NCBI RefSeq assembly: GCF_001645185.1
Contig: NZ_LXTQ01000030.1
Coordinates: 62,001-126,000 of the forward strand
Direction: 5' to 3'
DNA from: Methylobacillus sp. MM3
GTDB taxonomy: Bacteria; Pseudomonadota; Gammaproteobacteria; Burkholderiales; Methylophilaceae
Length of the DNA stretch: 64,000 nt
Under the pieces are notes generated by a model. That model saw only the letters and a program-made list of their open reading frames with translations. It was not told the DNA's origin and did not search any database. Shown here in pieces: positions 14,708 to 52,666 of this stretch (positions are counted from its first letter, which is position 1; each line of letters starts with the position of its first letter). Made by a program: the position numbers and the translations under genes.

Positions 14708-15520
14708 CTATCGCTGGCAACGCGGGCAATAAAACGTCGAGCGCTGCCCTTGCCTGATCATCGCGATAGGCGTACCGCAAACCTTGCAGGGTTCCCCGGT
14801 GCGCCCATAGACGAAATATTCCTGCTGGAAATACCCCGGATTGCCGTCCGCGCCAAAGAAATTCCGCAGACTGCTGCCACCGGCCTTGATGGCGTCCGCC
14901 AGAGTCGCCTTGATTTCCTGCACCAGCCGTTCGCAACGTGCCACGCTGAGTTTGTTGGCGGCCGTTTTTGGATTGATGCCTGCGCGGAATAGCGATTCGC
15001 TGGCATAGATATTCCCCACGCCGACTACCAGTTTTCCATCCATTACTACCTGCTTGATCGCTGCCGTGCGCGTGCGAATATTCCGATGCAGCCACTCGCC
15101 ATTGAAGGTATCGAGCAAAGGCTCCACGCCGAGACTGCCTAGAATGGGATGCAGCAAAGGGTCTTCAGCCCACAACACTGCGCCGAAACGGCGCGGGTCG
15201 CGCAGGCGGACCAGCGCACCGTTATCCAGCACCAGATCAAAGTGATCGTGCTTCTCCGGCAGCTCGTTTCCGATCAGATGGCACAGCCTGCCGGACATGC
15301 CGAGATGCAGGATTAGCGTACCGTGATCGAAATGAATTAACAGGTATTTAGCGCGGCGCGACAAGCTGCGTATGGGTTTTCCCACCAGCAGCTCTTGCAG
15401 ATTGGCAGGAACCGGCCAGCGCAATGCTGCGTTGCGCACGACCACCGCGGCGACGGTACGTCCCGCCAGCGGGCGTTCGAGGCCACGCAGCGTGGTCTCG
15501 ACCTCCGGCAATTCAGGCAT
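14708..15520 (-). CDS. mutM: Formamidopyrimidine-DNA glycosylase (Fpg/MutM)
   Basis: 270 residues from the ATG at 15520; the processed protein begins PELPEVETT, with catalytic Pro1, Glu2 and Glu5. The DNA-binding helix-two-turn-helix and a C-terminal Cys4 zinc finger (CKVCGTPI ... FYCPRCQR) are complete. It excises 8-oxoguanine and formamidopyrimidines. The Shine-Dalgarno AAGGAGG lies eight bases upstream, inside the end of a 271-bp structured repeat (15523-15793). In an RNA of that strand it would be base-paired. Confidence 0.97.
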   Translation of the reverse strand: MPELPEVETTLRGLERPLAGRTVAAVVVRNAALRWPVPANLQELLVGKPIRSLSRRAKYLLIHFDHGTLILHLGMSGRLCHLIGNELPEKHDHFDLVLDNGALVRLRDPRRFGAVLWAEDPLLHPILGSLGVEPLLDTFNGEWLHRNIRTRTAAIKQVVMDGKLVVGVGNIYASESLFRAGINPKTAANKLSVARCERLVQEIKATLADAIKAGGSSLRNFFGADGNPGYFQQEYFVYGRTGEPCKVCGTPIAMIRQGQRSTFYCPRCQR

Positions 15521-15522
15521 TC

Positions 15523-15793
15523 TAGAGCCTCCTTCAATAGGTTTCATACTCCGCGCAGCTTGCCTGCGGGATGCAGTGCAAGGCGCGGGCTGCGCCGTGG
15601 AGCCATTCTCCACAAGCAGCCTGCCACGCCGCAATGCGCCTGCAGGCAAGCTGCCCTCCGGGTTGAGTCAGGACGCGGCGTCTGCCGCGTTGCACCGCTT
15701 GCCAAGGGAGTGACCCTTGGCTGCACGGCACGCCTTGCATCCATCCGCGCCCTGACTCAACGCGAAGTATGAAACCTATTGAAGGAGGCTCTA
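15523..15793 (-). repeat. Structured ~270-bp repeat element, copy A (upstream of mutM)
   Basis: Perfect 27-bp inverted terminal repeats (15523-15549 with 15767-15793) enclose two nested arms. Arm 1 is a 16-bp stem at 15663-15678/15745-15760 with an A-C opposition on the plus strand that becomes a U-G wobble on the minus strand. It contains an inner hairpin GCCAAGGG/CCCTTGGC. Arm 2 is a 13-bp stem at 15555-15567/15642-15654. Read on the minus strand it shares GGATGCAAGGCG, GGCAAGCGGTGCAACGC and the CCCGGAGGG junction with copy B at 49470. It fills the gap between the DUF4340 gene, whose stop codon lies in one terminal repeat, and mutM, whose Shine-Dalgarno lies in the other. Confidence 0.85.
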
Positions 15794-16666
15794 ATGCGCG
15801 CCGACCGGCGGATTAAGCAGGGAAAATCCGAGATCGGGCGGGAAATGGTAGAGCATGCCTTCATCGGGTCGCGCCAGCAGCATCTCGGGCGATTCGAGTT
15901 GCTTGTCGACATGAATGCGCTTGCCATTCTTGAGGATGATTTCGAAGTAAGGATAAACCGTCTTGCTATCGACCCGGTAAGGCTCGACGGAGTTGGCACT
16001 TAGCGTCTTCCAGCCATCGCCAAACCACTCATCCAGCTCAGCGCGGACGGGCTTGGCGCCCGGAATGGAAACCTTCCATTCGCTGCCCTTGCGCTCCAGA
16101 CGCAGGCCGGTCGCTTCCCATTGTTCCAGGTGCGAGAAATCGAAGCCGACCACTTCTTCACCCGGCCCCAGCAGTTTTTTGTCCAGCAGTTCAACCACCT
16201 GGGTTGCGGCCGCGTCCGAATAAGACGTTGAAATCAGGTAGACCGAGTTTCCAAAGGCCACATACTGCTGGCCATTGACGGGATTGAACGTGCCGAACAG
16301 CAATTCCTTGTCGTCCAGCTTCAGCCGTAGCGAGGGGTGATCCAGACCGAAACGCGCAAGATCGGAAGTATCGAACTTGTCGACACTGTCTGCATTGAGC
16401 ACGGCGAGTATCCGGTTGACCGCCTGTTCGCCTGCACGCGCCGCATATGGCTGCACCAGGAACCAGTTGCCGTCGCGCTTTTCCAGCACCACCGGCTTTT
16501 TGGCGGAAAACTCGATTTCAACCTTGCGGACATCCGCCTGGCTGAGCTCGGAAACCTTCACCGAATTGGGCGATTCCTCTTCCTTTTTCGGATTCAGATA
16601 GAGGAACAGCGCGAGGCCTGCAATGACGACCAGCAGGCCAAGATTGACGAGCCAGCGCGATTTCAT
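15791..16666 (-). CDS. DUF4340 domain protein (Gld-like ABC operon)
   Basis: 291 residues: one N-terminal membrane anchor (LGLLVVIAGLALFLYLNP), then an extracytoplasmic beta-rich region with VEKRDGNWF-like repeats (VLEKRDGNWFLVQPYAARA, LRLERKGSEWKVSIP). This pattern defines DUF4340. The family nearly always accompanies GldG-like and ABC-2 permease genes, as here. The start overlaps the stop of the upstream GldG-like gene by four bases. The stop codon falls within the terminal repeat of element A. The function of the complex is unknown. Confidence 0.88.
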   Translation of the reverse strand: MKSRWLVNLGLLVVIAGLALFLYLNPKKEEESPNSVKVSELSQADVRKVEIEFSAKKPVVLEKRDGNWFLVQPYAARAGEQAVNRILAVLNADSVDKFDTSDLARFGLDHPSLRLKLDDKELLFGTFNPVNGQQYVAFGNSVYLISTSYSDAAATQVVELLDKKLLGPGEEVVGFDFSHLEQWEATGLRLERKGSEWKVSIPGAKPVRAELDEWFGDGWKTLSANSVEPYRVDSKTVYPYFEIILKNGKRIHVDKQLESPEMLLARPDEGMLYHFPPDLGFSLLNPPVGAH

Positions 16667-40008: not shown

Positions 40009-40010
40009 AT

Positions 40011-40081
40011 GTAGCGCAGGCGTCCTCGCCTGCATCAGCCCATGTGTCTACGGGGAATGCAGGCGAGGACGCCTGCGCTAC
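40011..40081. repeat. 71-bp palindromic repeat, family 2, copy 1
   Basis: Perfect 25-bp inverted arms (40011-40035 and 40057-40081) beginning GTAGCGCAGGCGTCC. The same arms recur, less perfectly, at 52582-52652, and one half-copy remains at 56027. It is an intergenic dispersed repeat with no coding content, lying between convergent genes. Confidence 0.85.
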
Positions 40082-40096
40082 GAAAATCAGCCTGGA

Positions 40097-49469: not shown

Positions 49470-49739
49470 GAGAGCCTGTTTCAGCAGGAAACGACTGATG
49501 CGATATGACACAAAGGCGATGGATGCAAGGCGCACCGCGCAGCCAATGGCCGCCCATTGGCAAGCGGTGCAACGCCGCAGACGCGCTTTTGTGTCATACC
49601 CCGGAGGGGCAGCACTGCCTTGCGCGCAGAGCGTTGTTGCTCGCCACTTATTTGGAATAACCAAACCGCGCGGCTCACGCCTAGCTCTTCACGCAAGGCA
49701 GTGCTGTCGCACAGCCGTTTCCTGCTGAAACAGGCTCTC
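49470..49739 (+). repeat. Structured ~270-bp repeat element, copy B (upstream of gcvPA)
   Basis: Perfect 24-bp inverted ends (49470-49493 with 49716-49739) starting GAGAGCCTG. Arm 1 is a 15-bp stem at 49504-49518/49584-49598 with one G-T wobble. Within it are GCACCGC/GCGGTGC (49532-49538/49564-49570) and GCCAATGG/CCATTGGC (49542-49549/49554-49561). Arm 2 is a perfect 15-bp stem at 49610-49624/49692-49706, after a CCCCGGAGGGG junction. The same fold appears in copy A at 15523-15793 with different paired sequences. It starts 7 bases after gcvH and ends 5 before gcvPA. Confidence 0.85.
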
Positions 49740-52548: not shown

Positions 52549-52581
52549 CACCCACGCTCCAGTTTCCCGGGCACTCCTTCC

Positions 52582-52652
52582 GTAGCGCAGGCGTTCCCGC
52601 CTGTATCCCCCCGATCCTCATGGTTTGTTGCAGGCGAGGACGCCTGCGCTAC
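52582..52652. repeat. 71-bp palindromic repeat, family 2, copy 2
   Basis: GTAGCGCAGGCGT ... and ... ACGCCTGCGCTAC arms as at 40011-40081, with two mismatches in the left arm. It has the same length as copy 1. It lies between gcvPB and the acylphosphatase gene. Confidence 0.8.
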
Positions 52653-52666
52653 AAAGTCTGCGCCGT

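Follow-up and report, generated by a model that had tools for sequence, protein, structure and literature searches.

A MITE-like repeat appears to supply the mutM Shine-Dalgarno sequence in Methylobacillus sp. MM3 and may tie its use to translation of the upstream gene

How is mutM translated in Methylobacillus sp. MM3, where the ribosome-binding site of the gene lies in one end of a long inverted repeat and the stop codon of the upstream gene lies in the other? The locus was analysed within a stretch of 64,000 nucleotides, here called the window, and comprises the following features.

14708..15520, minus strand: mutM (formamidopyrimidine-DNA glycosylase; PF01149, PF06831, PF06827), start codon ATG at 15520-15518
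15528..15534, minus strand: AAGGAGG Shine-Dalgarno (SD) sequence of mutM, anti-SD duplex -12.1 kcal/mol
15523..15793, minus strand: element A, a Y-folding repeat of 271 bp flanked by terminal inverted repeats (TIRs), separating the DUF4340 stop from the mutM start
15523..15555, minus strand: 3' terminal repeat, holding the mutM SD
15555..15654, minus strand: hairpin arm 2
15656..15767, minus strand: hairpin arm 1, holding a 71-nt conserved core (model R1)
15761..15793, minus strand: 5' terminal repeat (5' with respect to the mutM strand), holding the CCUCCUU that pairs with the SD
15791..15793, minus strand: TAG stop of the DUF4340 gene, with which the 5' repeat begins
15791..16666, minus strand: DUF4340 gene (PF14238), the last of an upstream tandem cluster

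The mutM start is fixed at MPELPE, because in Fpg/MutM chemistry the catalytic N-terminal proline must directly follow the initiator methionine; the same need rules out an in-frame ATG higher up in the repeat (MKPIEGGSR-MPELPE). A 7-nt spacer (CTCTAGA) separates the SD from the ATG, and none of the 42 gene starts scored in the window has a stronger SD. The original prediction described this sequence correctly in every checkable particular: the AAGGAGG is located inside the 3' terminal repeat on the minus strand, at 15534-15528, and the upstream stop codon inside the 5' repeat, at 15793-15791; the ends, given there as perfectly complementary over 27 bases, do pair perfectly, over 28 nt instead (15523-15550 / 15766-15793), within inverted-repeat arms of 33 nt (15523-15555 / 15761-15793) of which 32 are complementary.

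A perfect run of 28 nt was matched in none of 100 dinucleotide shuffles of the window. For the RNA of element A with 20 nt added, the computed folding energy is -201.9 kcal/mol; shuffles average -122.3 (z = -13.8), and none of 200 was as stable. The minus-strand RNA takes the form of a Y, with a closing stem made of both terminal repeats and two hairpin arms. A search of Rfam over element A gave nothing at the gathering threshold, the sub-threshold matches being unrelated miRNA and sRNA families; no terminator was found inside the element, and a plasmid collection held no match to it. Its flanks have TA alone in common and no full 3-bp duplication.

Element A belongs to a family. A whole-genome search revealed many relatives in the source genome, where full-length copies measure 259-273 bp and their arms about 22-37 nt, and one copy of 175 bp is without the second hairpin arm. 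The two arms of one copy are 92% identical, those of different copies 44%; the arms of element A agree with each other at 26/27 positions, and the best arm of any other copy at 17/27. When 14 copies from the source genome are aligned, the consensus is a Y of 82 pairs, 48 of which are changed on both sides with pairing kept. The R1 covariance model, built on the core of arm 1 and applied at E <= 0.01, found this core in 41 of 120 sampled related genomes, some with at least 30 copies and some weakly positive. Copies in other genomes are mostly 266-276 bp and fall into several terminal-repeat subfamilies, and similar terminal inverted arms were recognised in 94 copies of 17 genomes. Clean 3-bp TAA/TTA duplications flank most copies in the genomes G104 and G115 as well as copies L002 and L003, and one subfamily has a flanking CTAG duplication. 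Such TNA and CTAG duplications may recall IS5-type transposition. An autonomous IS partner was not found: PF01609, the sole transposase family searched in the source genome, is absent from it, and ten proteins beside lone terminal repeats gave no transposase match and appear to be ordinary genes. By its anatomy, as judged from sequence, the family is MITE-like, with TIRs, short length, multiple dispersed copies, no transposase gene and empty sites in relatives.

One-arm copies also occur, and TIR-only hairpins of 50-52 bp are found at G115:C5:30669-30720, G115:C25:3463-3514 and G049:C73:73760-73809, so that TIR-only, one-arm and two-arm forms make up a modular size series. Around positions 2000-2215 of L188 (reverse strand), a lone terminal repeat is directly followed by another repeat, whose ends are GGAGCCTGCCGGACTTAA / TTCAAGTCCGACAGGCTCC; the two may represent a nested insertion. 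A different palindromic repeat (GTAGCGCAGGCG...) lies at 40010-40085 and 52578-52653 of the window, with perfect 25-nt arms at 40011-40081, and resembles a GTAG-tagged REP.

A comparison with relatives lacking the element, proposed along with the original prediction, returned junctions that overlap or are mostly very short and carry no SD. Element A is absent from the DUF4340/mutM junction in 29 relatives; the gap is 3-36 nt in most of them and consists of 100-217 nt of other sequence in four, and in one genome (G026) mutM was not found beside DUF4340. The junction of a congener (G001) is a TAATG overlap, and an overlap of this type is the probable ancestral state. The mutM leaders of 28 relatives contain no good SD, with anti-SD energies of +1.3 to -5.9 kcal/mol against -12.1 here, so the repeat supplied the mutM SD. 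The comparison with relatives shows element A as an insertion into a tight stop-start junction, and its 3' terminal repeat as the provider of an AAGGAGG otherwise missing from mutM in this lineage. Terminal repeats akin to those of element A read GAGCCTACTTCAGTAGGTTTCAT (L084) or GAGCCTATTTCAGTAGG. Those of element A read GAGCCTCCTTCAATAGGTTTCAT in both arms, so the changes that make the SD are present symmetrically. They could have arisen by template-switch correction of quasipalindromes, a route that we infer, or by insertion of a copy already carrying them.

In a genome of another genus (G027), the DUF4340-mutM junction (L072) holds a 108-nt insert with its own terminal inverted repeat, TTCCATTTCTTTAT / ATAAAGAAATGGA, which extends into a GGAG before mutM; the fold of this insert has z = -2.7, and it looks like a convergent case.

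What such an insertion would do to translation was calculated on a transcript covering 15900-15440. The SD is predicted to be masked in the read-through mRNA because the two terminal repeats pair, and in silico the ribosome site is sealed as originally predicted, since 21.9 kcal/mol would be needed to open it in the full transcript. The cost computed in silico drops to about 5 kcal/mol (5.0-7.0) when a ribosome at the DUF4340 stop covers at least 9 nt beyond it, in keeping with the earlier proposal that ribosomes ending there could open the helix. Transcripts without the 5' repeat give a computed 5.6-7.1 kcal/mol, the same cost as with the terminating ribosome, and termination at this stop would therefore remove the lock completely. 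Translation-dependent unmasking of the mutM SD is, on this model, geometrically sound.

The stop-start distance is now 270 nt, beyond the range of about 20 nt in which most relatives fall. In the gene pairs tested from E. coli and archaea, reinitiation is nearly lost at a separation of about 20 nt (PMC10666635), so coupling here would have to be either of the RNA-unfolding type, an accepted model of translational coupling (PMC12548453), or the result of a gap-bridging structure. The sequence of events that we consider has the following steps. The insertion would have moved DUF4340 and mutM 270 nt apart, where by the published distance dependence ordinary termination-reinitiation should break, and its 3' terminal repeat would now serve as the mutM ribosome-binding site. 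The paired terminal repeats would hide the SD in the read-through mRNA until ribosomes finishing DUF4340 reach its stop codon, which is part of the helix strand facing the SD, and expose the site. Translation of mutM would then stay dependent on that of DUF4340 through RNA unfolding and not through proximity, as the energies suggest; a read-through, uncut mRNA and the dependence of mutM on DUF4340 translation are the presumed steps. This reading as a whole, in which a MITE-like insertion donated the mutM SD, its paired ends mask it and ribosomes terminating on DUF4340 unmask it and keep mutM dependent, is given about an even chance.

The original prediction went further and called the arrangement a coupling or silencing switch for mutM. 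The masking geometry is borne out by the energies, whereas a switch under selection is not. Terminal-stem mismatches in the sense copies of the source genome comprise 15 G.U and 14 A.C pairs, and this comparison gave no signal of RNA-level selection in the terminal stem; with the two classes equal, the pairing is explained by the DNA-level symmetry of the terminal repeats. An exact scan of the genome contigs for the terminal-repeat variant of element A yielded one further match, L202, in a Gallionellales MAG. At about 2500-2605 of L202, a truncated element carries AAGGAGG 9 nt before an ATG and has no masking 5' arm; it immediately follows the stop codon of one gene and precedes another, which by inspection are a nadC-like gene and a class II glutamine amidotransferase gene. 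It fits a donation of the SD without the lock. Among AAGGAGG terminal repeats in 399 genomes, matches with the variant look like chance. On the sequence evidence there is no sign of a selected switch at mutM; taken as a model, the switch is a possible and well-posed one. In hairpin arm 2 of copies outside the source genome, G.U exceeds A.C mismatches by 106 to 57, an excess absent from the terminal stem.

The mismatch counts and L202, a copy that lost its 5' arm and kept the AAGGAGG close to a start, also suit another explanation. The terminal repeat may only have been co-opted as a ribosome-binding site, with the helix as a by-product of DNA-level symmetry and the mRNA cut within the helix by an enzyme such as RNase III; mutM would then be translated independently of DUF4340. 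Cutting of the long helix by RNase III might indeed free the SD whatever the translation of DUF4340, and RNase III cuts transcripts of Correia elements at their TIRs (PMC10969869). Against it, the SD would be about 22 kcal/mol from open in uncut RNA, and the differences from related repeats are identical in the two arms of element A, so that pairing was kept. We regard this explanation as possible, at clearly less than even chances. The evidence favours a MITE-like insertion whose end was turned into the mutM ribosome-binding site; what most likely followed is an unmasking that depends on translation.

The position of the other copies bears on the matter from another side, and a second one lies within the window.

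49470..49739, plus strand: second copy of the family, placed between a 128-aa gene inferred to be gcvH (its stop 7 nt upstream of the copy) and gcvPA (its start 5 nt downstream)

Of 16 copies with defined ends in the source genome, 13 have a start codon 0-11 nt from one end. In 12 of them the start follows the 3' end in sense orientation, and in one (L011) it is antisense and adjoins the 5' end; gene calls on the window give an expectation, in either orientation, of 31/511 TA sites or 40/715 TNA sites, about 6%. The genes after the 12 sense copies are mutM, an fdsA-like formate dehydrogenase subunit gene, gcvPA, nuoG, pdxA, hisG, an RluA-like gene, pyrB, an exbB-like gene, hisI and two others, and most of these copies also abut an upstream stop. 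In G001 and/or G006 the junctions nuoF-nuoG, pyrR-pyrB, murA-hisG, hisF-hisI, surA-pdxA and fdsB-fdsA are element-free, and these six are tight (overlap to about 13 nt), with surA-pdxA of G006 as the one wider case. Among the 94 copies of 17 genomes, 18 sense and 3 antisense copies lie at stop-start junctions, and start-adjacent copies are sense or antisense in a ratio of 25:8 overall, 12:1 in the source genome and 13:7 elsewhere, the last bias not being significant. Gene calls are rough in GC-rich genomes, and some of the starts flagged in G113 and G105 are probably spurious; clear junction cases elsewhere precede exbD-like and proA genes (G018), a riboflavin synthase gene (G006) and a nusB-like gene (G113). 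None of the 12 sense start-adjacent copies of the source genome has a clean 3-bp duplication, which is present in L002 and L003, away from starts; within these small numbers, the copies at junctions would seem to be old ones that were retained. Across copies L001-L017, L143 and L144 of the source genome, the stop/start junctions that the family occupies belong to housekeeping operons (nuo, his, pyr, gcv, pdxA, fds).

An SD is absent in 10 of the 11 other genes behind sense start-adjacent copies (-0.8 to -4.5 kcal/mol), gcvPA behind the second window copy among them, and the SD of the remaining gene, at L015 (-9.5 kcal/mol), lies outside the element; taken together, the family therefore does not work through an SD. 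The original prediction was concerned with element A alone; its anatomy was right, and the family of copies at stop/start junctions was missed. This positional specificity of the family is a larger finding than the mutM case.

The lack of an SD in these genes, the placement of 12 of 16 copies 0-11 nt before a sense start, most also abutting an upstream stop, the excess of sense copies at stop-start junctions and the Y-fold kept through many compensatory changes would agree with a role common to the whole family. The base of the helix would join the upstream stop and the downstream start and permit reinitiation across 270 nt; an element at such a junction would be nearly neutral for translation, and copies would therefore persist there. 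We consider such a structural bridge unlikely: no bacterial precedent was located, a terminating ribosome would itself open the helix beside the stop, the sense bias is not significant outside the source genome, and the terminal stem shows no G.U excess. An extended form is likewise improbable, in which a Y-folding mobile family specialised in operon stop/start junctions, keeping coupling across the 270-nt insert by an RNA bridge, and element A additionally evolved an SD in its closing stem.

It is similarly doubtful that the insertion has no translational role, with accidental SD-like letters and mutM expressed otherwise. TIR symmetry alone would explain the pairing, and the family has inserted often in these genomes, but a perfect AAGGAGG stands at 7-nt spacing where 28 relatives have none, and the same variant recurs just upstream of a start in L202. 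Transcription of mutM from a promoter inside the element, leaving the 5' repeat outside the mRNA, is very improbable even though Correia-type MITEs often carry promoters (PMC10969869), since a scan for one promoter type gave a single 9/12 sigma-70-like match, whose second hexamer (15524-15519) overlaps the start codon.

Several known systems are close to the arrangement favoured here, SD donation with translation-dependent unmasking. With bacterial MITEs such as Correia/NEMIS, ERIC and RUP (PMC2229807, PMC10969869), the family shares short, non-coding, multi-copy, TIR-flanked units with highly paired RNA, frequent gene adjacency and, around some of its copies, short target duplications. Unlike them, it has terminal repeats of 25-35 nt that vary by copy, a two-armed Y-fold, placement at stop/start junctions and, in element A, the donation of an SD. 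Correia elements supply promoters and RNase III sites (PMC10969869); a word search of two MITE reviews (PMC2229807, PMC10969869) found no mention of start codons or ribosome-binding sites. In coupling by RNA unfolding, for example in genes VII/IX of phage f1 (PMC12548453), a structure hides the downstream site and the upstream ribosome opens it, as predicted for element A, where the upstream ORF likewise ends within the masking structure; in contrast to the phage genes, a mobile-looking repeat here contributes both the masking arm and the SD, one from each end and separated by 270 nt. Termination-reinitiation at overlapping genes (PMC10666635, PMC6728339) corresponds to the probable ancestral state of DUF4340/mutM, and differs from the present one in that the distance is now far over the range where coupling is almost lost. 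REP and GTAG-tagged repeats (PMC3733652) are also palindromic and extragenic, but they are units of 20-40 bp and not a 270-bp TIR element, and the likeness of the TIR-only hairpins to them is superficial.

The anatomy of element A at mutM is unusual. Beyond this locus, natural insertions of the family split genes that are adjacent or overlapping in relatives, namely at hisG, hisI, nuoG, pyrB, pdxA, gcvPA, exbB-like, fdsA-like and mutM genes. Each of them tests the distance limit for coupled genes, the replacement of proximity by RNA structure and the turning of mobile repeats into ribosome-binding sites, and the location of 13 of 16 copies between a stop and a start, where about 6% would be expected, needs an explanation of its own.
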